The position numbers and the translations under genes are program-made. From contig JAJYJC010000005.1 in the NCBI GenBank assembly GCA_021796415.1, forward strand, positions 1-52,121: a stretch of DNA of 52,121 bases, given 5' to 3'. This document shows, one piece after another, positions 2,198-46,905 of this stretch; position 1 is the stretch's first letter, and every line of letters begins with the position of its first letter. The notes beneath the pieces were generated by a model. That model searched no databases, was not told where the DNA came from, and saw only the letters and a list, made by a program, of their open reading frames with translations. This DNA is from a bacterium (GTDB taxonomy: Bacteria > Patescibacteriota > CPR2 > UBA1875 > JAJYID01).

Positions 2198-2866
2198 ATG
2201 CCTTATAGAAAAACAAATTTTGTTAATGGTAATTTTTATCATGTTATCAATCGTGGTGTAAACCATGATGCGATTTTTAAGGATGAAAAAGATTACCGGC
2301 GTTTTTTAGACTCAACTAATTTTTCAAGATTTGATTCAGAAGTTCAGTTCTCCTATTTTAATAGGATTTCCGAAAAAGCAAGGGGTGAAATGTTGGAGAG
2401 ATTTGAAAAAACAAAAGGTCCTTTAGTTGATATTTTGGTTTTTAGTTTGATGCCAAACCATTACCATTACCTAATGAGACAACTTTTGGATGGTGGAGTG
2501 CAAACGTTTATGAGGAATTTTCAGAATAGCTATGCGAAATTCTTTAATATCAAACACGAAAGAATCGGCCCTTTGTTTCAATCAGCTTTTAGGGCTACAC
2601 CAATTGAAAGCGAGGAACAGCTAGTTCACACCTCAAGATATATTCATTTAAACCAAGTCTCCTCGTCACTAGTGGAAATAACAGATCTGGAAAAATATCC
2701 TTGGACTTCTTTTCCTGAATATTTAGGCAAAAAAAGATATAACTTCGTAAATACCAAACCAATATTAGAATTCTTTGATGGCGATAGGATTAAATATAAA
2801 AAATTTGTTTTTGAGCAAGCTGATAATCAGAAAGAATTGCAAATTATAAAAAATCAATTAAACTAA
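2198..2866 (+). mobile_element. REP-associated tyrosine transposase (RAYT, Y1_Tnp-like)
   Basis: NGNFYHVINRGVNHDAIFKDEKDYRRFL, LMPNHYHYLMRQ (HUH), RYIHLNQV; bracketed by palindromes. Confidence 0.93.
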
Positions 2867-6245: not shown

Positions 6246-7706
6246 ATGGCATCCAGGAAAACAATGAATCAAAACACAGAAAATATAAAAAGCGCAATAC
6301 AGCTCTTTCGTGAAGCTGCCCAAAGAGTACCTGCGTACAAGGATTTTTTGAAACAGAACAAGGTTAATCCTGACGAGGTGGTATCAGGTAAAGACTTTGA
6401 GCGGGTTCCGCCGGTAGACAAGAAGAATTACCTAAGAAAGTATTCATTAAAAGACTTGTGCTGGGATGGCTCATTAAATAAACCGCTGGTTTTTACCTCA
6501 ACATCCGGCTCAACAGGGAAGCCTTTTTACTTTGCAAGGAATGAATCGATAGATTTGCAAAGCGCCATGATATATGAGTCTTTCTTGAAGCAAAATGTTC
6601 TTAAAAATGGTGGCACAACTCTGATTATTGTTTGTTTTGGCATGGGTGTGTGGATTGGGGGGCTTATCGCTTACGAATCTTTAAGGATGTCGAGCTGTGA
6701 AAACAATTATCCGATTTCGATACTGACGCCGGGCATTAACAAAAAAGAGATATTTGAAGCGCTTCGAGAGCTGGCCCCAAACTTTAATCAAGTCGTTATG
6801 ATTGGTTATCCGCCCTTTATCAAAGATGTGATTGATGAGTCGTCCAGTATGGGTATTGACATCAAAGCGATGAATATCAAGTTAATTTTTGCCGCAGAAA
6901 TTTTTACCGAAAAATTTCGCGACTATATAGTAAAAAAAGCAGGGATAAAAAATACATATTTAGACATAATGCACATTTATGGCAGTGCCGACATAGGCAC
7001 CATGGCGTGGGAAACGGGCATTTCAACGCTCATTAAAAAGTTGGCATGCAAAGACAAAAACTTATTTTCATCCTTGTTTCCGGGGTTGGAAAACAAAACA
7101 CCGACGCTCGCCCAATATAACCCCCGATTCATTAACTTTGAAGAACAAAACGGCGAGATATTACTTACGGGCAATAACGTTGTCCCGTTGGTGCGCTACT
7201 CTATTGGAGACCGGGGGGGAGTTATGAGCTACTCCGAAGTAAGCAGGATATTTCAAGAGAATGGTTATGATCTCGAGAAGGAATTGCGTAAGGCATCTAT
7301 TGAGGGTCATGTCGAGAAGCTGCCCTTTGTCTATATTTATGAAAGGATCGATTTTGCGACAACTCTTTATGGGTTGCAGATTTTTCCAGAGATGATAAGA
7401 GATTCATTGTTGCATGATGCTGCCACAGAATTTTTAACGGGTAAGTTTACTTTATTGACGAAGTTCGACAACAAACAAAATCAATATTTGGAGATAAATG
7501 TGGAGCTCAAAAATAACGCAAAGCCTGACAGCGGCTTCAAGAGAATGCTGGCCAACAAAATAACATCTGATCTGTCTAAGAAAAGTTCAGAGTTCAGAGA
7601 ACTGCATGCCCATCTCAAGAAAAGGGCTGTGCCAAAGCTGGTTTTTTGGGATTTTAATGACCCCACATACTTTAAAGCGGGAATCAAGCAGAAGTGGGTT
7701 GCATAA
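6246..7706 (+). CDS. PaaK-like (phenylacetate-CoA ligase family) adenylate-forming enzyme
   Basis: FTSTSGSTGKPFYF AMP-binding P-loop, YGSADIG, VRYSIGDRGG. Confidence 0.85.
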   Translation: MASRKTMNQNTENIKSAIQLFREAAQRVPAYKDFLKQNKVNPDEVVSGKDFERVPPVDKKNYLRKYSLKDLCWDGSLNKPLVFTSTSGSTGKPFYFARNESIDLQSAMIYESFLKQNVLKNGGTTLIIVCFGMGVWIGGLIAYESLRMSSCENNYPISILTPGINKKEIFEALRELAPNFNQVVMIGYPPFIKDVIDESSSMGIDIKAMNIKLIFAAEIFTEKFRDYIVKKAGIKNTYLDIMHIYGSADIGTMAWETGISTLIKKLACKDKNLFSSLFPGLENKTPTLAQYNPRFINFEEQNGEILLTGNNVVPLVRYSIGDRGGVMSYSEVSRIFQENGYDLEKELRKASIEGHVEKLPFVYIYERIDFATTLYGLQIFPEMIRDSLLHDAATEFLTGKFTLLTKFDNKQNQYLEINVELKNNAKPDSGFKRMLANKITSDLSKKSSEFRELHAHLKKRAVPKLVFWDFNDPTYFKAGIKQKWVA

Positions 7707-7718
7707 ATTTTATTTAAT

Positions 7719-8756
7719 ATGAATACCAAAACAGTCAACAAAAAATCTTTCAAGTTGCTTCCGGGTAAAGAAAAAATTAAAACTTTGCTGGAGTACGCCA
7801 CTTTAGCGCCTTCCACACACAACACGCAACCGTGGATTTTTAGCGTTGCCGAAAACTCCTGCAAAATCTATGTCAATCCCTCACTCTATTTGAGGGAGGC
7901 AGACAGGAAGGGCAGATACATAGCTATTAGCCTGGGATGCCTCATCGAAAATCTTGTTATAGCCGCAAAACATTATGGTTATTACCAGGATATTGAGTAT
8001 AATATCGCTCTGAAAAACATTAAACAATATAAGAAAGGCGACAAATTTCTAATCGCCGAGGTGTTTTTGGAGAATAATGGAGCCAAAGAAGAGAATAATG
8101 AACTATTTGACGCAATACCGAAGCGATTCAACGCAAGGGGCCCATTTGAAGAGAAAGCCCTGCCAAAACCGCTCAAAGACCAGCTTTGCGGCATAAAAAA
8201 AGAAATACCGGAAGTTGACATGACAATGGTTGCTGACAAAGAAAAGATACTCGAAATTGCCAGACTCACTGCAAAGGGGATGATGGCGGCCCATAAAAAC
8301 GTTAATTTTAGGAGAGAGCTTTCCGGTTGGGTCAGAAATGCTTTTTCCAGAAAGAGAGACGGCATGTCATGGAAATCTATGAGAATCCCAGCCCCCTTTG
8401 CCGGATTTATTTCTTACATGATTCGTTTTTTCAATATGGGACCGGTGTTAGGGAAGCTGAATTTCAAGAGCGTGGCTTCTGCTCAGGCTGTATGTGTTTT
8501 TGGGTCAGGTGAAAATATGTTTAGCTGGCTGCAGGTTGGGCGAGCCGCCGAAAAAGTTATGTTAAGCACATATGCAAAGGGCTTCAATACTTCTGTTTAT
8601 GTTGCGGCGATTGACATTGATTCTTTGAGAAAGAACCTAAAAAGTATCATTGATAGTGAGAGTGAGCCTCAATTTCTACTATGCCTAGGTTACATGGACC
8701 AAAAACATCCCAAAACGGCTCGCAAGGACATTAAGGAGGTTATTATAAATGAGTGA
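7719..8756 (+). CDS. Nitroreductase/Acg-like FMN-dependent family protein
   Basis: LLEYATLAPSTHNTQPWIFSV, GRYIAISLGCLIENLVIAAKHYGY, WLQVGRAAEKVMLSTYAKGF. Confidence 0.8.
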   Translation: MNTKTVNKKSFKLLPGKEKIKTLLEYATLAPSTHNTQPWIFSVAENSCKIYVNPSLYLREADRKGRYIAISLGCLIENLVIAAKHYGYYQDIEYNIALKNIKQYKKGDKFLIAEVFLENNGAKEENNELFDAIPKRFNARGPFEEKALPKPLKDQLCGIKKEIPEVDMTMVADKEKILEIARLTAKGMMAAHKNVNFRRELSGWVRNAFSRKRDGMSWKSMRIPAPFAGFISYMIRFFNMGPVLGKLNFKSVASAQAVCVFGSGENMFSWLQVGRAAEKVMLSTYAKGFNTSVYVAAIDIDSLRKNLKSIIDSESEPQFLLCLGYMDQKHPKTARKDIKEVIINE

Positions 8757-9837
8757 TATAAAAGACAGCTTGGTTGAGTTACAAAACTATGACCTCAAAA
8801 CCTATTCTCCGATTGTTTTTGACCTTGGAAAAGAAAGTGATATTCAGAGTATTGATGAATTAATAGAGAAAAAGAAGATAACCAAGGTGGTAGATTATTT
8901 GCATGAGCAAAAAAAAGAACTGCAGCTGATAAACGACCCGAAGCTCTTATACGAGGGGGTCGATGCAGTAAAAATAAAAAATGAAGAAGGGGTATGGATC
9001 TATTACCCGTGGCTTTCATCGCTGGTACACTGCCTGAAGGAGGGTGATTACAATAGATTGCGTTTGTCCAGAAATAGAGAACTGATTACAGAGGAGGAAG
9101 AAAAAGAGTTTGCCAGCCTTAAAATAGGCTTTGCCGGGCTGAACGTAGGAAACCCAATAGCGATTTGTACCGCCCTGGAAGGTGGTAGTTTGGCTCTCAT
9201 GAAGTTAGCCGACAACGATACTCTGGACTTCACGAATTTGAATAGGTTCAGAGCGACTGTTGCAGATCAAGGGATAAACAAGGCTATTTTGACAGCTCGC
9301 CAGGTATATGAAGTGAGCCCGTTTGTCAAAACAGAAGTTTTAGATAAGGGAATTAGCGCGGAAGGAATTGAAGATTTCCTATTAAGACCCAGGATAGATA
9401 TTCTCGTTGAAGAGATGGATAACTTGCCCCTAAAAATTAAAATTAGAGAGAAGGCCAGGGAGCATGGGATACCAGTTGTGATGATCACGGGAAATGGTGC
9501 TGGCGTGATTGTGGACGTGGAAAGATACGATAAAGACAAATCTTCAAGGGTATTAAACGGCTATTTGAAAGATGATGTTATCGAGAGGATTAAGAACCCC
9601 GTTAGCACATTGGATGAAAAAATTGCTCTTGCCAGGGATTTCATGGGGAAAGAGCATTTGTCACCGAGATTAAATAAATCATTTGGCTTGATTGGTCGAG
9701 AATTAGTTGGTATACCGCAAATTTCCGAGGCGTCATTTTTGAGAGGGGCGGTTGTGTGCAATATATTAAGAAATCTGTTGCGTAAGGATATACCATCCGG
9801 GAGATATAGTTTTAGCCTAAGCGATATAATAAAATAA
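8749..9837 (+). CDS. ThiF/MoeB/E1-like adenylating protein
   Basis: KIGFAGLNVGNPIAICTALEGGSLALMKLADNDTLDFTNLNRF...GINKAILTARQVYEVSP...DILVEEMDN; overlaps the previous ORF by 8 nt. Confidence 0.83.
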   Translation: MSDIKDSLVELQNYDLKTYSPIVFDLGKESDIQSIDELIEKKKITKVVDYLHEQKKELQLINDPKLLYEGVDAVKIKNEEGVWIYYPWLSSLVHCLKEGDYNRLRLSRNRELITEEEEKEFASLKIGFAGLNVGNPIAICTALEGGSLALMKLADNDTLDFTNLNRFRATVADQGINKAILTARQVYEVSPFVKTEVLDKGISAEGIEDFLLRPRIDILVEEMDNLPLKIKIREKAREHGIPVVMITGNGAGVIVDVERYDKDKSSRVLNGYLKDDVIERIKNPVSTLDEKIALARDFMGKEHLSPRLNKSFGLIGRELVGIPQISEASFLRGAVVCNILRNLLRKDIPSGRYSFSLSDIIK

Positions 9838-9841
9838 ATAG

Positions 9842-12106
9842 ATGATACTACTCGCAGTAACTATTACCATACTTCTAATAAATACCCTTCTGGGTTATTT
9901 GGTTTTGGTGAGAAACTATAAAAGCGGCAGCAACCTCATCTTCTTTCTGATAACCTTTGCCTTTTCTCTTCTGGGGCTTGTGAACTATATATCCATACGA
10001 GTTACCTCTCCGGATAGTATTCTACTATGGGCAAGATGGGTGATGGCCCTCGCCACTTTGCATACATTTCTTCTGGTTGTTTTTGCAAGCGTATTTCCGC
10101 AGAAAAAATTTCAGATAAACAAATTTCTAGCGGTATATCCAATATCATTTCTTGCAATTTTTGCCATGTCTCTTACCTCCTTGGTTTTTAAGGGGATTGA
10201 TGTTTCTGGCGGCAAAATTACGGTTATGCCCGGCAGCCTCATTCCGCTATACGGAGCCTGGGTTATTTTCTCGGTAGTTGCAGCCTTTATTATTCTGTTT
10301 AAAAAATATCGCCGTTCAGCAAATCGCCTCGAGAAATTACAACTGAAGTACATTATAGCGGGCTTAATAATTACATACACAACACTGTTTACCATGAACT
10401 TCATAATCGTTAATGTCTTTAAATACACAGACATCGTAAAGCTTACGCCTTTATTCACTTTGCCATTCATCTTCCTTTCTGCTTATGCCATCATTAAACA
10501 TCGCTTTATGGATATACGAATGGTGGCAGCGAGATCGGTTGTGTTTGCGGTACTCCTGTCTCTGATCGGCTTTATTTACACTTTTTCTATGCTCTGGACC
10601 GACCGCGTCATGTTTCCCACCTCTGGAAGCGTGCTAAGCGTTTGGCAAATTTTATTCAGGGCAGCTTTGACCTTATTTATTATTTTCTCTTTCCAGCCGC
10701 TAAAAAGGTGGATTGGAAAAAGAACAGATAGAATTTTCTTCAAACAATCTTATGACCCGGAAAAACTGCTGGACGAGCTATCCCACACCATGGCTTCGAG
10801 CATTGTCTTGATTGAACTGCTATTTAAAGTTATGAATATATTGATTGATAAGATGAAGGTTTCCAAAGGATTCTTTATCTTACTGAAGGATGGAGAAGTC
10901 TATACAACCCAAGGCATTGGTTATAAAAAGAATTTACGGGTAAACCCAAAAGACATTGAGGCTCTAACTCATGATGGCATATGTATATATGATGATCTGG
11001 AGGAGGGTTCGCATTTAAAGCAAATCTTGAAAAAATATGACGCCTACATTGCTCAGCCATTAAAAAACGATAACCGCATAACCGGAGTACTGCTTTTGGG
11101 GGATAAGAGTTCAGGCGACATATACTCCAAACAGGATATAAGAATATTTGAAATTATCGGTCCGCAGATATCGGTTGCCATTGAAAACGCTAAATCTTAT
11201 GAAGAGATTCAAAAATTTAATACCGTGCTCAGAAGCGAGGTGAAAAAAGCGACAAGCGAGCTCGAGACGGCAAACGAGAACTTAAGGGAGCTGGATAAAG
11301 CAAAAGACGAGTTTATTACCATGGCTTCCCATCAGTTAAGGACGCCGTTAACTGCAATTAAAGGATACCTTTCCATGCTGCTTGAGGGTGATGCCGGTGA
11401 GATAAAGGTGGGGCAGTACGAGTTTGTTGAAGAAGCCTACTCGGGAGCGACAAGAATGGTGGCATTGATAAATGACCTTTTGAATGTTTCCAGGATGGAA
11501 ACGGGAAAATTCTTCCTGGAGCCTACGGAATTTGAGCTGACGAAAATGGTTGAGGAAGAGATCAAACAGCTTGAGAAGACAGCAAGGGATAAGGGTCTAA
11601 AGGTTGTGTTTGAAGGGAGGGGAAAAATAAATCTCTATGCTGACGAAATGAAAGTAAGGCAAGTGGTTATGAACTTTATTGATAATGCCATTTACTACAC
11701 TCTGCAAGGCAAGATAAAAGTCAAGGCTTACAAGGAGGGTAAAAATGCATGTTTTGAAGTTACGGACAACGGCATCGGAGTTCCTAAAGAACAACAAAAA
11801 AACTTATTTACCAAATTTTATCGTGCCGAGAATGCACGTAGAACCAGGCCGGACGGGACGGGACTAGGGCTCTTTATGGCAAAGAAAGTGGTGGAGGATC
11901 ATAATGGAGAAATTATTTTTCATTCAGAAGAAGGGGTTGGGTCTACTTTTGGTTTTCGTCTGCCGATAGCAGCTAAGATTAAAAAACAAGACCACCTGGC
12001 CGAAGCGGCGAAAAATGTTGCTGCCGAAACAAAGGTGGCAGATGCTCCGCGGCAAGAAAAAGACGAGATAATCAAAAAGAATAAAGAAGCGGTTCCAACC
12101 TCCTAA
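9842..12106 (+). CDS. Sensor histidine kinase with N-terminal 7TM-type region, GAF-like domain, HisKA and HATPase
   Basis: Multiple N-terminal TM segments; ASHQLRTPLTAIKGYL (H box), DNAIYY, DNGIGVPKE, GTGLGLFMAKKVVE. Confidence 0.92.
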   Translation: MILLAVTITILLINTLLGYLVLVRNYKSGSNLIFFLITFAFSLLGLVNYISIRVTSPDSILLWARWVMALATLHTFLLVVFASVFPQKKFQINKFLAVYPISFLAIFAMSLTSLVFKGIDVSGGKITVMPGSLIPLYGAWVIFSVVAAFIILFKKYRRSANRLEKLQLKYIIAGLIITYTTLFTMNFIIVNVFKYTDIVKLTPLFTLPFIFLSAYAIIKHRFMDIRMVAARSVVFAVLLSLIGFIYTFSMLWTDRVMFPTSGSVLSVWQILFRAALTLFIIFSFQPLKRWIGKRTDRIFFKQSYDPEKLLDELSHTMASSIVLIELLFKVMNILIDKMKVSKGFFILLKDGEVYTTQGIGYKKNLRVNPKDIEALTHDGICIYDDLEEGSHLKQILKKYDAYIAQPLKNDNRITGVLLLGDKSSGDIYSKQDIRIFEIIGPQISVAIENAKSYEEIQKFNTVLRSEVKKATSELETANENLRELDKAKDEFITMASHQLRTPLTAIKGYLSMLLEGDAGEIKVGQYEFVEEAYSGATRMVALINDLLNVSRMETGKFFLEPTEFELTKMVEEEIKQLEKTARDKGLKVVFEGRGKINLYADEMKVRQVVMNFIDNAIYYTLQGKIKVKAYKEGKNACFEVTDNGIGVPKEQQKNLFTKFYRAENARRTRPDGTGLGLFMAKKVVEDHNGEIIFHSEEGVGSTFGFRLPIAAKIKKQDHLAEAAKNVAAETKVADAPRQEKDEIIKKNKEAVPTS

Positions 12107-12217: not shown

Positions 12218-12406
12218 ATGCAGTTCTATAATGTGAAAAAGAGAGAAAAGGTAGAAATATCCGACGACCAGCTGAAAAAGACCGTATACACGGGTAAAAG
12301 CGGTCAGAAGAGATACGCTGTGCGCGCTGTCGATGACGATGGCACAAATCTGACGCGATTTGTTTCCAAGGATGATTACGATGCGCTAGATGCACCGGAA
12401 GAGTAG
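12218..12406 (+). CDS. Small hypothetical protein (62 aa)
   Basis: RBS-like aaaaggaga upstream, followed by a terminator. Confidence 0.65.
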   Translation: MQFYNVKKREKVEISDDQLKKTVYTGKSGQKRYAVRAVDDDGTNLTRFVSKDDYDALDAPEE

Positions 12407-12411
12407 AAAAG

Positions 12412-12437
12412 AAAAAAGCTTCTTTCGAAGCTTTTTT
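12412..12437. terminator. Bidirectional rho-independent terminator between the 62-aa ORF and rnpB
   Basis: aaaaaagcttctttcgaagctttttt hairpin with A/T flanks. Confidence 0.85.
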
Positions 12438-12442
12438 CAATT

Positions 12443-12948: not shown

Positions 12949-13023
12949 GGCCCGTTCGTCTAGTGGTTAGGACGCCAGGTTTTCATCCTGGTAACAGGGG
13001 TTCGATTCCCCTACGGGCTACCA
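12949..13023 (+). tRNA. tRNA-Glu (anticodon TTC), CCA encoded
   Basis: ggcccgt...acgggct acceptor, ccagg-ttttcat-cctgg anticodon arm, aggggttcgattcccct T-arm, then acca. Confidence 0.95.
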
Positions 13024-14530
13024 ATGAAGATTTCTTGCCATCAAAAGTGGCATTTATACTATAAACAAGCCCTAAACGGGCGGTTCCAAAACCTACATTC
13101 TTTTTATATGAAACTCCCTCAGGAAAGACCAACTTTTGGAACCGAGGTTTTATTTTGTCTGGCATATCAAACCACTGCCTGCCTAAATCATCAATAAAGT
13201 GCATTGCATAGTTCAAAGCCCCCTCAATATCAAGCTGGTCTATTTTAGATTCATTTAATGAAATCTGTTCGGCAACAATTTCGTTATCAACCTCCGCCTT
13301 CCTAGTAAAAAACTCCTCTTTTGTATAAGAGCCATCTTCTCTCATTTCATATAAACGTTTTCTCTTTTTCTCTAGAAGATTTATTGCTTTTTGTATTCTT
13401 GCAGTTTCCGTTTGGTAAGCTTGACCCTTCTCTTGCCAAAAATCTAAGGCAGTTTCTTTGAATAGTTCTAGAAATTCGTTTTTAGGTGTTATAGTTCGGA
13501 GGTGTTTAATAAAATCCGCCTCAATGTCTTTTTTCGGCAATGACTTCCCATACATTGAGCATTCTTTATTATAGCAATGATAGTTAGCATATTTCCCGCC
13601 ATTGCCCCTTGAATAACTGCCCGTTAAAGTGTGCCCACATTCTCCGCAAAGGATAGTTCTTCTTAGAGCAAAGTCGGGATTAAACCTATGTCTTTTGAGT
13701 TTCAATTTTCCGCCACTTTTAAAGTAGGTAATCTTACCCATCTCTTCTTCGCTAATCATCGGTTTGTGCAAACCTCGTCTTTCTTCCTGAGTCCAAGGAT
13801 TTACAATAATGCCTGTATAAAATTTCAGATGTTTGCTTAGCATTTTGTCTACAAACTGCATGGAGGTCTCTTTGCCTCTGATTCTGGCAAGACCCCACTC
13901 GTCAAGTTTGCCAGTTAATTCTTTTTGTGAATATATGCCCTTTGAAAATTCCTTTAATGCCTTTTGAATAATAGGGAAAGATTGCTCGTCTGGCGGGTCT
14001 GGTCGTGTTTTCTTCTCACCATGCTTTTTAGAGTGAAGACATCTATATCCAGTGGGAGCTTTCCATGGATAAATACCTCTGTTGATTTGAGTCATCATTC
14101 CGTCGGTACACTGCCTTTTTCTTATAGCGTTTTCGTATTCTGAAGCTCCTGCAATGATTGTTTCAAAGAATTTACCAGTAGGGGAACTGTCAATCGGTTC
14201 CGTGACAGAGTGGAGAGTCGTGCCGTAATCTATAAGTATTTTTCTGACCGCAAAATGGTCTTCGGTATTTCTAGCAAAGCGGTTTAATCTTAGGACAATG
14301 AAAGCTTCCACATTTCCCTTATTTTTACGGCAATATTCAAGGGCATCTAAGAAAACCTTGCGATTATTCAGGCTTAAATCCTTTGCACTTTCACCTTCTT
14401 CCCGAAAAACAGATACCACTTCGATACCTTTTTCTTGACAATATTTTTTGCATACTTCTTCTTGGAACTCTAAAGATGTGCCTTCAACCTGCTCACCGCT
14501 TGAGACTCTTGTATAAATTATTCCTTTCAA
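12983..14530 (-). CDS. Large serine recombinase (resolvase + recombinase + zinc ribbon); C-terminus reads antisense into tRNA-Glu
   Basis: IIYTRVSSGEQVEGTSLEFQ, VLRLNRFARN, CGECGHTLTGSYSRG zinc ribbon; TTG start at 14530 after aaaggagc. Confidence 0.92.
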   Translation of the reverse strand: MKGIIYTRVSSGEQVEGTSLEFQEEVCKKYCQEKGIEVVSVFREEGESAKDLSLNNRKVFLDALEYCRKNKGNVEAFIVLRLNRFARNTEDHFAVRKILIDYGTTLHSVTEPIDSSPTGKFFETIIAGASEYENAIRKRQCTDGMMTQINRGIYPWKAPTGYRCLHSKKHGEKKTRPDPPDEQSFPIIQKALKEFSKGIYSQKELTGKLDEWGLARIRGKETSMQFVDKMLSKHLKFYTGIIVNPWTQEERRGLHKPMISEEEMGKITYFKSGGKLKLKRHRFNPDFALRRTILCGECGHTLTGSYSRGNGGKYANYHCYNKECSMYGKSLPKKDIEADFIKHLRTITPKNEFLELFKETALDFWQEKGQAYQTETARIQKAINLLEKKRKRLYEMREDGSYTKEEFFTRKAEVDNEIVAEQISLNESKIDQLDIEGALNYAMHFIDDLGRQWFDMPDKIKPRFQKLVFPEGVSYKKNVGFGTARLGLVYSINATFDGKKSSLVARRGIEPLLPG

Positions 14531-14550
14531 CTCGGCTCCTTTCTTTTAAA

Positions 14551-14648
14551 TAAACCAAAGAGGGACAACCCTGCTGTACACAGTTCCTCGCGGATACTGA
14601 ACAGGATTGCCCCTCAAAGGCAAAATCCGCGAAATTGAAACTGTGTAC
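14551..14648 (-). ncRNA. Candidate structured leader RNA, copy B, upstream of serine recombinase
   Basis: P1 gtacacagtt (14639-14648)/aactgtgtac (14576-14585), P2 tcgcggat/atccgcga, apex ttgcct..aggggcaa, 3' agggttgtccct; TATAAT with extended -10 TG at 14655-14660. Confidence 0.65.
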
Positions 14649-14680
14649 AATCTAATTATACCATTCTTGTCAAACTTTTG

Positions 14681-14946
14681 CTACCTAGCATTTAATTTTT
14701 CGAGTTCCCTTTGTACCAAACTATTCAAGTACCTTTTCCTATCCCGTACACTCGGGGATTCCTTAGTCAGTCCATAGAGCCTCTCAAACACCGCTAGACC
14801 AAGTTTGTTGTAGCTACTCAAGATAAAGTTCATGTTTTCTTCTCCTAGCTCTTGGGCAATCTCATAGCATCGGTACTCATCAGGTGACCCTGGCTCAAAC
14901 CCCCTTACTGGAATCTCTTTAAAAGATTTATTAATCATCGATGTTT
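14681..14946 (-). CDS. Small hypothetical protein of the element
   Basis: ORF listed to 15007; a likely start MINKSFKEIPVRG overlaps the stop of the upstream gene. Confidence 0.5.
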
Positions 14947-15491
14947 TCATTATCTTTTTCTTTATCCTTATTATTATTACAACTTCTGACTTGATTGGTT
15001 CCACCATCCATTGAAAAGCTTTCTATAAGAGCCTTTTTCCCTTCATTTAAGTTCTGACTAACAGACATCGGCTTAGTACTAACTTCTGACTCTAGAGGCT
15101 CCTGAGTTTTCTCTTCACCTCTGACTAAGTTGTCTTCAAAATATTTATCTAGCTTTTTGATTTTCTTATCGGGAAGGATAAAATCGCCAAAATGTATCTC
15201 AAATGAACCTCTGCACCCTCGACGGTCTTTGAACCATATCAACCTCTTCCTCTTTAATGACAACACTAACTTTTCGATGTAGTTGACTCCCTTAAGTTTT
15301 GGAAACAAGTCGCTTTTAATTGTCTCAAGGTTTGTTGTACAAATTCCATAAGCATTACAGGTTAGTCTAAGGTGGAGATAGAGTGTATATTCGTTCCTGT
15401 TTATCCCACCGTTCCTATATAAAGAAACAATATCTCGCTTATAGGCTATCCAGTTTTCTAGCTTTTCATCATCTAGTGATTCCTGTGTCAT
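14931..15491 (-). CDS. Hypothetical, replication-organizer-like N-terminus (helix-turn-helix type)
   Basis: MTQESLDDEKLENWIAYKRDIVSLYRNGGINRNEYTLYLHLRLTCNAYGICTTNLETIKSDLFPKLKGVNYIEKLVLSLKRKRLIWFKDR; family assignment is tentative. Confidence 0.5.
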   Translation of the reverse strand: MTQESLDDEKLENWIAYKRDIVSLYRNGGINRNEYTLYLHLRLTCNAYGICTTNLETIKSDLFPKLKGVNYIEKLVLSLKRKRLIWFKDRRGCRGSFEIHFGDFILPDKKIKKLDKYFEDNLVRGEEKTQEPLESEVSTKPMSVSQNLNEGKKALIESFSMDGGTNQVRSCNNNKDKEKDNENIDD

Positions 15492-15642
15492 TTTTCTTCT
15501 CCTTATTATAATTTTTATCTTCATTCCATTGCTCAAATATGATTTCAACAAGAGAACGCATAGAATCTCTTACTGTCTCTGCTTCTTCGTCAGTAATATG
15601 GGGGTTGCCTATCAGGCTCTTGGTGCGTTCAATACTCAGCAT
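15469..15642 (-). CDS. 57-aa small ORF not in the ORF track
   Basis: MLSIERTKSLIGNPHITDEEAETVRDSMRSLVEIIFEQWNEDKNYNKEKKNDTGITR; overlaps the start of the next gene. Confidence 0.5.
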   Translation of the reverse strand: MLSIERTKSLIGNPHITDEEAETVRDSMRSLVEIIFEQWNEDKNYNKEKKNDTGITR

Positions 15643-45639: not shown

Positions 45640-46905
45640 ATGACAATAAAAGAGATGGAAAAAGAAACCGCTTTTGATAGTGCCTTGAGCCAGCTGGAAA
45701 AAGCATGCGAGATCCTCCAGGTCGGGGGAGACGTGCTGAAAGTTTTGCGCGAGCCGCAAAAAATCACCCTGGCTAGCATTCTGGTCCAACTCGACAATGG
45801 AAGCACGGAGGTATTCCAGGGTTATCGGGTGCAGCACAACAATGCCCGCGGGCCGTACAAAGGCGGCATTAGATTTCATCCGCGGGTTGATCTTGACGAG
45901 GTTAAGGCGCTGTCATTTTGGATGAGTATCAAAACTGCCGTTCTGGATGTGCCGTATGGCGGAGCGAAAGGCGGTGTGACGGTTGACCCGAAAAAGCTTT
46001 CACAAAAGGAATTAGAGCGATTATCACGCGGTTTCGTCAGGCAGTTTTACTCGGTCATCGGTCCCGATCAGGATATACCTGCGCCGGATGTTTATACAAA
46101 CTCTCAAGTGATGGCGTGGATGAGTGATGAATATTCCACCATTGCCGGCAAGAAAGAGCCGGCGGCATTTACCGGCAAGCCCATCGAGATTGGCGGGTCT
46201 ATCGACCGTGATACCTCGACATCTCAAGGCGGTGTTTACGTGCTGGAAGAGGTGATAAAGCACAGATTTAAGAGTAGAAAGAAGCCGCTTACCGTTGCTA
46301 TTTACGGCATTGGCAATGTCGGAGGAGGCGCGGCCGAAATACTTCATTACGCAAACAACGATTTTAAGGTGGTTGCCTTGGCTGATTCGAAAAATGCGGT
46401 GTACAATCCTCATGGTTTCGACGTCCCATTTTTGCTTGCGCAGAAACACGAGGAGGGAACTATTGCTGGATTTAAAGGCGCGAAAGAGATTACCCACGAG
46501 GAACTTTTGACACTCGGTGTCGACATTTTGATTCCTGCCGCTCTTGAGAACACCATCACGGCAGAAAATGCGGATGGCGTGCAGGCAAAACTTATCCTTG
46601 AGATGGCAAATGGTCCCGTAACGCCGGAAGCTGAAAAAATATTACTCAAAAATGGCACTTTAATCGTTCCGGATATCCTGGTAAATGCCGGCGGTGTGAC
46701 GGTGAGCTACTTTGAATGGTCGCAAAACAAAAGCGGATTTTATTGGGATAGTGAAGAGGTGCAGGCAAAACTTGCAAAGAAAATGAAAACCGCTTACAAA
46801 AATGTCCTAGAAATATCCAAAACTTACAAAACAGACCTTCGAACCGCTGCATACATACTTGCGGTTTCAAAAATCGTCAAAGCCCAGGGACAGTTGGGAG
46901 TTTGA
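45640..46905 (+). CDS. gdhA: Glu/Leu/Phe/Val dehydrogenase (glutamate dehydrogenase)
   Basis: RVQHNNARGPYKGGIRFHPRVDLDEVKALSFWMSIKTAVLDVPYGGAKGGV. Confidence 0.95.
   Translation: MTIKEMEKETAFDSALSQLEKACEILQVGGDVLKVLREPQKITLASILVQLDNGSTEVFQGYRVQHNNARGPYKGGIRFHPRVDLDEVKALSFWMSIKTAVLDVPYGGAKGGVTVDPKKLSQKELERLSRGFVRQFYSVIGPDQDIPAPDVYTNSQVMAWMSDEYSTIAGKKEPAAFTGKPIEIGGSIDRDTSTSQGGVYVLEEVIKHRFKSRKKPLTVAIYGIGNVGGGAAEILHYANNDFKVVALADSKNAVYNPHGFDVPFLLAQKHEEGTIAGFKGAKEITHEELLTLGVDILIPAALENTITAENADGVQAKLILEMANGPVTPEAEKILLKNGTLIVPDILVNAGGVTVSYFEWSQNKSGFYWDSEEVQAKLAKKMKTAYKNVLEISKTYKTDLRTAAYILAVSKIVKAQGQLGV

Follow-up and report, generated by a model that had tools for sequence, protein, structure and literature searches.

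A ThiF-fold protein together with a flavin oxidase defines the TyzBC, OxzB and TrzS systems (PMC10404671). Rv1355c, which is TrzS, is an N-acyl-tryptophan cyclase-desaturase that closes its substrate into an oxazolone; its essential Asp217 is an ATP-contacting aspartate, as in E. coli ThiF, and it acts beside a GNAT-like acyltransferase in TrzAS (Rv1356c-Rv1355c), which makes an N-acyl tryptazolone in Mycobacterium and Rhodococcus (PMC12856293). TyzABC of Mycobacterium tuberculosis and OxzAB of Pseudoalteromonas rubra make acyl-oxazolones with a FeeM-type acyltransferase dependent on acyl-CoA or ACP and an FDO-A oxidase, and contain no sensor (PMC10404671). Oxazolones do not survive acid or methanol (PMC12856293). 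Clusters for N-acyl dehydrotyrosines (stieleriacines, thalassotalic and kyonggic acids) combine ThiF, a nitroreductase and N-acyl amino acid formation by the NasY acyltransferase with taxon-specific methyltransferases (PMC12479983). In benzoxazole pathways, the PaaK-fold ligases NatL2, AjiA1 and ClxA activate aryl acids by adenylation and couple them, with no need of CoA, to an amine or a hydroxyl (PMC7204872, PMC12519233). The flexirubin cluster of Chitinophaga (FlxA-FlxY) has a tyrosine ammonia-lyase and an acyl ligase (PMC3992019).

We analyzed a 52,121-nucleotide stretch of DNA from a bacterium of the Patescibacteriota (contig JAJYJC010000005.1; hereafter the window). The genomes of Patescibacteria are tiny and in general no longer encode amino acid, lipid and cofactor synthesis, and to our knowledge hardly any secondary metabolites or signals of their own are known. 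The bacterium studied here has such a tiny genome and is probably a parasite or symbiont. Its genome is about 90% complete, and with some 10% missing the gene absences reported here are provisional.

The window carries four plus-strand genes at 6246-12106 (Table 1): the first two are 12 nt apart, the second and third overlap by 8 nt, and 4 nt separate the third from the fourth. This layout is exactly that described in an earlier note on this DNA, and the families given there (PaaK-like, Acg/nitroreductase, ThiF and 7TM-GAF kinase) were upheld by profile matches. The operon shares with TrzAS a homologous ThiF domain, with the same ATP-site residues, and a flavin oxidase adjoining it (fused to it in TrzS and in one relative, L050), and with TyzABC the encoding of the two as separate genes of one operon. 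It has the cyclase and the oxidase, in overlapping genes, of an acyl-oxazolone pathway, but no adjacent FeeM/GNAT acyltransferase. The present clusters instead contain a PaaK-fold ligase, deaminases and a 7TM kinase, and the window oxidase falls in the Acg clade; a PaaK-like ligase or kinase is unreported for the N-acyl dehydrotyrosine clusters. The benzoxazole ligases share the PaaK fold with the window ligase but are only 16% identical to it, and their partners and cyclization enzyme differ. A lyase and an adenylating ligase, as in flexirubin synthesis, occur together in the lyase-type relatives; the polyene synthase is absent here, and the window has no lyase. The linkage of synthase genes to a multi-TM histidine kinase is also found in modules of the CqsA/CqsS type. 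Our literature search found no published description of this operon and nothing linking oxazolones with Patescibacteria, co-mentions of the two being unrelated.

Table 1. Features of the operon in the window
Feature	Position	Strand	Remarks
PaaK-like ligase gene	6246..7706	+	486 aa
Acg/nitroreductase-like gene	7719..8756	+	345 aa
ThiF-like gene	8749..9837	+	362 aa
7TM-GAF histidine kinase gene	9842..12106	+	754 aa
Kinase domains (Pfam)	residues ~1-230 (7TM), 323-447 (GAF), 487-555 (HisKA), 601-709 (HATPase_c)	+	
Terminator-like palindrome	12411..12438		12-pair stem, T/A runs on both sides; consensus match only

The palindrome is likely to mark the end of the transcription unit. A scan for sigma-70-type promoters gave 17 matches against 16 in shuffled sequence, i.e., no excess. 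Nothing similar to the 62-aa ORF that follows the kinase gene (12218-12406) was found next to other clusters.

Conservation of the operon

A search with ThiF only found a close relative in 46 of 379 Patescibacteria-type genomes, or about 1 in 8. In the 40 loci examined out of these 46, a PaaK-like ligase gene lay near ThiF in 35 and a 7TM kinase gene in 34. Conservation of all four genes in relatives had been set beforehand as a check on the operon, and among 103 distinct loci with both ThiF and PaaK we found a flavin enzyme in 89, the kinase in 85 and all four genes in 77. Of 118 pairs of neighboring core genes, 116 shared a strand and 103 were no more than 30 nt apart; the median gap was 2 nt. 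The clustering is real and far above chance, and the tight, co-directional order extends across the phylum; the operon occurs in dozens of families. Nonomuraea and Gemmatirosa also have distant relatives of PaaK, in unannotated high-GC records, but neither ThiF nor an oxidase was seen alongside them.

An aromatic amino acid deaminase accompanies the core genes in about half of the 103 loci, as a dehydrogenase (33), an aminotransferase (9) or an ammonia-lyase (HAL; 8), and no locus has two of these types. The dehydrogenase scored 287 against the tryptophan dehydrogenase ScyB, and the lyase scored 599.7-610.1 bits against the flexirubin TAL profile (cut-off, 700). Because a profile built from all 35 PaaK members was too divergent, the contig scan used a subset profile, and it therefore favors dehydrogenase-type clusters. 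The window copy has no deaminase beside it. As a candidate elsewhere we considered the sole ELFV match in the genome, which is weak (24.6 bits) and belongs to a gene 36 kb away (45640-46905), and rejected it.

The cyclase, the oxidase and the ligase

The ThiF-like protein matches PF00899 and scores 277-281 bits against the Rv1355c family NF005901 over model positions 8-338, which is the N-terminal half; it is 35% identical to plasmid-borne Rv1355c proteins. The 476-bit cut-off of that family is not reached by the separate genes (277-281 bits for ThiF and 57 bits for the oxidase), nor by the fused ThiF-oxidase protein of L050 (452 bits). In an AF2 model (pLDDT 92.3), the closest fold is that of AclA (9egb; Z 26.9), and E. 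coli ThiF (1zfn) gives Z 23.5. The D.D..NLNR and lysine landmarks noted earlier are present as ADxD...NLNR and K178 and are kept across 40 relatives; the alignment of relatives shows G130, G134, N163, N165, R166, K178 and D224 to be invariant, and no ATP-site residue is lost. D224 would correspond to Asp217 of TrzS. From these comparisons we assign the protein to the TrzS/TyzB/OxzB group as a predicted ThiF-fold adenylating cyclase with an intact ATP site.

The earlier note had connected the ThiF and nitroreductase genes with mycobacterial Rv1355c-type proteins and suggested that they are a split version of one. The connection is right for ThiF, an ortholog of the Rv1355c/TrzS N-terminal half, but for the oxidase we rejected a simple split on the basis of tree and HMM scores. 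The window oxidase groups with Acg-type oxidases, apart from the C-terminal domain of Rv1355c (branch support 1.0), and scores 197.1 bits against the Acg family NF047509, just below the curated cut-off of 199, with its closest relative, L032, at 202.7. An A-S..N.QPW motif and R140 are invariant across 33 relatives. Over the 103 loci, type A oxidases occur in 60 and type B in 29, never together, and most relatives have the Rv1355c type. The product of the window gene is best described as a putative Acg-type (FDO-B-like) FMN oxidase/desaturase.

The PaaK-like protein retains the conserved adenylation motifs S87-G88..G91 (TSGSTG), Y245/G246 (YGS), D322 and the C-terminal K481. It scores 52.9 bits (2.1e-14) against TIGR02155, far under the curated cut-off of 646 bits, and also matches the FlxY profile (2e-8). 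The structure nearest to its AF2 model (pLDDT 89.8) is PaaK1 with phenylacetyl adenylate (2y4n; Z 30.6, rmsd 2.6 over 394), followed by NatL2, AjiA1 and ClxA (Z ~26). Modeled fold and motifs agree in identifying it as a PaaK-fold (ANL) adenylating enzyme. The acyl-CoA-dependent N-acyltransferase of the known oxazolone pathways is missing, and the PaaK-fold ligase takes its position: no FeeM/GNAT-type amino acid N-acyltransferase gene adjoins within the operon, and profile searches of the ~90%-complete genome found no FeeM-type (PF21926) or Acetyltransf_5 (PF13444) acyltransferase, no ketoacyl synthase and no CoaE match over the cut-off. We propose that the ligase is a CoA-independent acyl-amino acid (amide) ligase. 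Against a CoA-free route, the protein could make acyl-CoA from imported CoA.

The sensor kinase

H497 of the kinase is invariant, and its sensor region occurs in a single copy in the genome. HisKA_7TM (PF16927) was matched by 30 of 34 kinase homologues, the window copy itself falling under the threshold. As first described, no response regulator adjoins the kinase in the window; one lies close by in 29 of the 103 loci (~28%), and its absence is a feature of the window's lineage. Six single-domain response regulators are encoded on other contigs of the genome. No single partner stands out genome-wide, the best candidates (L077 on C39 and L079 on C10) leading only marginally.

Proposed pathway and alternatives

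Synteny and domain content support the earlier proposal of a small-molecule pathway in one operon with its own sensor kinase. On balance, and by a narrow margin over even chances, we favor a pathway that makes an aryl-acyl amino acid without CoA, cyclizes it to an oxazolone-type product and is coupled to the dedicated kinase. The ligase would activate an acid, probably aromatic, as the acyl-AMP and use it to acylate an amino acid directly at its amino group, standing in for the acyl-CoA-dependent N-acyltransferase. Like TrzS and TyzB, the ThiF-like enzyme would then adenylate the carboxylate of the N-acyl amino acid and close the ring of a 5(4H)-oxazolone (azlactone), and the Acg-type FMN oxidase would desaturate the amino acid part. 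The kinase may respond to this product, or to the conditions of its synthesis, and relay the signal to a single-domain response regulator whose gene lies elsewhere in the genome. Several points count against this reading: the window copy lacks both the deaminase and the response regulator; the characterized oxazolone desaturases are FDO-A enzymes and the window oxidase is of the FDO-B type; those desaturases use O2, yet O2 is scarce in the groundwaters of many relatives; and a kinase does not necessarily recognize what its own operon makes.

The strongest competitor, which we consider rather unlikely, keeps the same building blocks but makes from them something other than a signal (a compound with an antimicrobial, redox or host-interaction role), with the kinase only regulating synthesis upon stress or oxygen. 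The window kinase has a GAF domain and the flavin oxidase is likely O2-dependent; moreover, resistance to oxidative stress has been linked to the M. tuberculosis tyz genes, and N-acyl tyrosines can act as antimicrobials (PMC10404671, PMC12856293). However, the association of the clusters with a recurrent, single-copy 7TM input (85 of 103 loci) is tighter than that expected for a generic stress sensor, and neither an exporter nor an immunity gene was seen to be conserved with them.

Modification of a ribosomal peptide or a ubiquitin-like carrier by the ligase, ThiF and nitroreductase, as with MccB, PaaA (pantocin) or ThiF-ThiS, is improbable. The ThiF fold is indeed common to MccB (Z 22.6), PaaA (Z 21.5) and E1 enzymes, and nitroreductase-fold oxidases also act on RiPPs. 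But no column in the alignment of 40 ThiF proteins has cysteine in even 8 of them, leaving no common site for a thioester, a persulfide or CxxC zinc binding; this, with the lack of a recurrent small ORF, led us to reject activation of a sulfur carrier. The earlier note had left room for peptide modification and asked for a conserved substrate peptide; an all-against-all comparison of 512 short ORFs around the clusters gave none, the only recurrent one resembling ribosomal protein S15 (5 loci). The deaminases, too, are partners expected of metabolism. Slightly more improbable still is catabolism, in which aromatic amino acids are deaminated, converted to CoA thioesters and degraded under a substrate-sensing kinase: it would suit the phenylacetate-CoA ligase fold and the deaminases preceding the ligase in half of the loci, but it gives the ThiF cyclase no evident role, CoaE is below cut-off, and the neighborhoods contain no recurrent downstream degradation gene.

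Retention of the operon and its sensor in about 1 in 8 sampled genomes suggests that a specific small molecule is made and monitored, perhaps for partner or density sensing. We offer only tentatively, as a possible but less probable extension of the oxazolone pathway favored above, that Patescibacteria use a CoA-free aryl-acyl amino acid or oxazolone, made by the PaaK-fold ligase, ThiF and desaturase and read by the co-encoded 7TM kinase, for cell-cell signaling. If so, it would be a new class of autoinducer in ultra-small, host-dependent bacteria. The favored pathway would itself be the first case of a small molecule both made and sensed in this huge uncultured group. It would extend oxazolone chemistry past actinobacteria, proteobacteria and planctomycetes, provide a first step that dispenses with CoA, and bear on the signaling function that has been proposed, though not proven, for the mycobacterial oxazolones. 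In the relatives, the aromatic amino acid dehydrogenase, ammonia-lyase or aminotransferase would supply the acid, and methyltransferases or hydrolases may tailor the product; these tailoring genes differ from locus to locus.

Conservation of the four-gene operon

The four open reading frames (ORFs), their order, their strand, and their junctions are exactly as the earlier note had stated, and Pfam and NCBIfam confirmed the kinds of protein that it had named: a remote PaaK-like ligase, an Acg/nitroreductase-like flavin oxidase, a ThiF-like protein, and a GAF-HisKA-HATPase kinase. A search of 379 genomes of the phylum with the ThiF protein only, in which matches were kept at E ≤ 1e-10, gave 57 matches, 46 of which (E of about 1e-28 or better) constitute the subfamily of the window's protein; the remainder are MoeB/TcdA-like, judged by their shorter, weaker alignments. 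For 40 of the ThiF loci we retrieved up to 20 kb of sequence each and looked for partner genes at a distance of no more than seven genes from ThiF. A PaaK-like gene was present at 35 of these loci, a separate oxidase gene at 33, and a kinase gene at 34, and at one additional locus (L050) the oxidase is present as a ThiF-oxidase fusion. Of 118 pairs of neighboring core genes, 116 have both members on the same strand, and the median gap between neighbors is 2 nt.

A second, independent scan of GTDB contigs, with a PaaK subset as query, identified 556 relatives, and the best 80 of the 556 were nearly all from Patescibacteria; the closest matching loci belong to Wildermuthbacteria, Liptonbacteria, Brennerbacteria, and similar organisms, which, together with the size of the genome, suggests that the window too comes from Patescibacteria/CPR. 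Pooling and de-duplication of both searches left 110 ThiF loci, 103 with PaaK, and among these 103 the oxidase is present at 89, the kinase at 85, and all four genes at 77, so the synteny on which the earlier reading depended is found in relatives. Since the second scan had PaaK as its query, the pooled counts favor loci with PaaK; the ThiF-only counts are free of that bias. We conclude that the four-gene CPR operon is real and conserved. It is apparently new to the literature; the library that we searched contained no paper on oxazolones in Patescibacteria and none on this gene set.

The distribution near the window is patchy: ThiF and PaaK are both absent from two congeneric genomes, and only one other genome in the family has a PaaK relative, which is distant (28% identity). 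The copies L136 and L149 are on contigs that carry the labels Pseudomonadota and Chlamydiae, owing either to transfer or to errors in binning. In several lineages (L095, L102, L105, L106, L112, L143, L144, and L153), a recurrent run of ORFs of approximately 190, 630–665, 355, and 165–200 aa lies upstream of the ligase, which suggests a shared chromosomal site.

The ThiF-like protein and the flavin oxidase

Rv1355c (TrzS) catalyzes the ATP-dependent cyclization of N-acyl-tryptophan to an oxazolone, which is then desaturated by its flavin domain (PMC12856293), and TyzB and OxzB carry out the same reactions on tyrosine derivatives (PMC10404671). The window's ThiF protein matched the N-terminal half of the Rv1355c family (277 bits) and is approximately 35% identical to plasmid-borne Rv1355c proteins, with more than 90% of its length aligned. 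Residues that are invariant across 40 CPR homologs include G130, G134, N163, N165, R166, K178, and D224, the last of which shares an alignment column with the Asp in the "IDS" motif of TcdA. We take D224 to be the counterpart of the ATP-contacting Asp in E. coli ThiF, and we infer that it is equivalent to Asp217 of TrzS. Substitution of Asp217 with Ala abolishes TrzS activity (PMC12856293). The AF2 model is confident (pLDDT 92.3), and the structures nearest to it are Tenacibaculum AclA (Z 26.9, rmsd 2.0 over 234) and ThiF from E. coli (Z 23.5, rmsd 2.3 over 210).

No Cys column is common to even 8 of the 40 ThiF proteins, and sulfur transfer or ubiquitin-like activation is therefore disfavored. 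The earlier note had also allowed for a conserved short substrate peptide, but no recurrent short ORF lies beside the clusters (the operon's counterparts in relatives), and hence there is no sign of a peptide substrate.

Both a tree and family scores divide the oxidases of the clusters into two kinds. The first branches with the C-terminal domain of Rv1355c (support 0.97), and the members tested scored about 190–200 bits against that family; an oxidase of this kind follows ThiF in the L050 fusion, whose product, with 452 of 476 bits, is close to a full Rv1355c protein. The second kind, which includes the window's oxidase, branches with Acg-like oxidases (support 1.0) and scored about 150–208 bits against the Acg family. 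By similarity, the two look like the FDO-A (Rv1355c-like) and FDO-B (Acg-like) types of Grigg et al. The 89 oxidase-bearing clusters comprise 60 with the first kind, 29 with the second, and none with both (hypergeometric 2e-15, an indicative value that ignores phylogenetic relatedness), and the two kinds therefore seem to substitute for each other. The proposal that the window carries a split Rv1355c thus holds for the ThiF part and fails for the oxidase part; the pair in the window is a mosaic.

The ligase and the acylation step

Known oxazolone pathways start with an acyl-CoA- or ACP-dependent N-acyltransferase. In the window's genome (903 kb, approximately 90% complete), we found no acyltransferase of the FeeM or Acetyltransf_5 type and no ketoacyl synthase, and CoaE fell below the cutoff (18.7 bits versus 27). 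Because the acyltransferase is missing, the operon lies outside the known oxazolone pathways. The position of the acylation enzyme is held by the PaaK-fold ligase, in which the motifs for adenylation are conserved, as is the C-terminal Lys. The best fit for its model (pLDDT 89.8) is the phenylacetyl adenylate-bound PaaK1 structure (Z 30.6, rmsd 2.6 over 394). NatL2, AjiA1, and ClxA come second (Z about 26), and plant GH3 amido synthetases are more remote (Z 16–17). NatL2 (PMC7204872) and ClxA (PMC12519233) have the PaaK fold and join an aryl acid to an amine or hydroxyl via the adenylate, without CoA. Given this precedent, and a PaaK-fold ligase in place of an acyltransferase, the most economical reading is that the ligase is a CoA-free acyl-amino acid ligase. 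We infer that the operon behaves as an oxazolone pathway in which such a ligase replaces the acylation step and which has gained its own sensor.

Half of the clusters (50 of 103) contain a gene for removal of the amino group from an amino acid, encoding an ELFV dehydrogenase closest to the Trp dehydrogenase ScyB (33), a PLP aminotransferase (9), or an aromatic ammonia-lyase whose nearest match is the tyrosine ammonia-lyase of flexirubin synthesis (8). The three never co-occur (simulated chance 5e-4, again indicative, with phylogenetic relatedness ignored), and their simplest common role would be to provide the ligase with the acid for activation. In the lyases, the presumed substrate-selective position is occupied by Ser-His, so Tyr, Phe, and His are indistinguishable as substrate. 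Gene fusions at two relatives' loci, L045 and L055, hint at consecutive steps. Some clusters have added methyltransferases or alpha/beta hydrolases, as small-molecule pathways do. The window's operon has no deaminase gene; the sole ELFV-type match in its genome, the 421-aa ORF at 45640-46905, is probably an ordinary glutamate dehydrogenase.

The sensor kinase and the surroundings of the operon

The N-terminal 7TM module PF16927 is present in 30 of 34 kinase homologs. A minority are longer, including the window's kinase, in which the extra part is the GAF domain. The sensor region of the window's kinase occurs only once in the genome. Six single-domain response regulators are encoded elsewhere in the genome, and one lies within 6.5 kb at 29 of the 103 ThiF+PaaK loci; such regulators would be likely outlets for the kinase signal. 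An operon that couples biosynthetic genes with a multi-TM kinase is reminiscent of known synthase-receptor modules, with a putative ligand for the kinase.

Features of the window and of two relatives' loci
Feature	Position	Strand	Remarks
IS200-like (Y1) transposase-type ORF	2198-2866		Upstream of cluster; PF01797, 25.1 bits
Apparent membrane protein, 378 aa	4935-6071		Immediately upstream of ligase; no Pfam match, no relative beside other clusters
Four-gene operon	6246-12106	+	
62-aa ORF	12218-12406		Good ribosome-binding site; between kinase gene and strong palindromic terminator; no counterpart beside other clusters
Apparent integrative element	12949-15551		
tRNA-Glu	12949-13023		
Serine recombinase gene	12983-14530	-	
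421-aa ORF	45640-46905		Weakly like cluster-type amino-acid dehydrogenase, 30% identity
Dehydrogenase-ligase fusion	L045:6821-9364		Amino-acid dehydrogenase fused to ligase
Oxidase-hydrolase fusion	L055:3631-5532		Flavin oxidase fused to alpha/beta hydrolase

No direct repeat of at least 18 bases that would mark the other end of an element at tRNA-Glu was found in the window. The C terminus of the neighboring recombinase (...RRGIEPLLPG) is encoded within the tRNA, so the GC-poor stretch that follows (34–38% G+C) looks like an integrative element at this tRNA.
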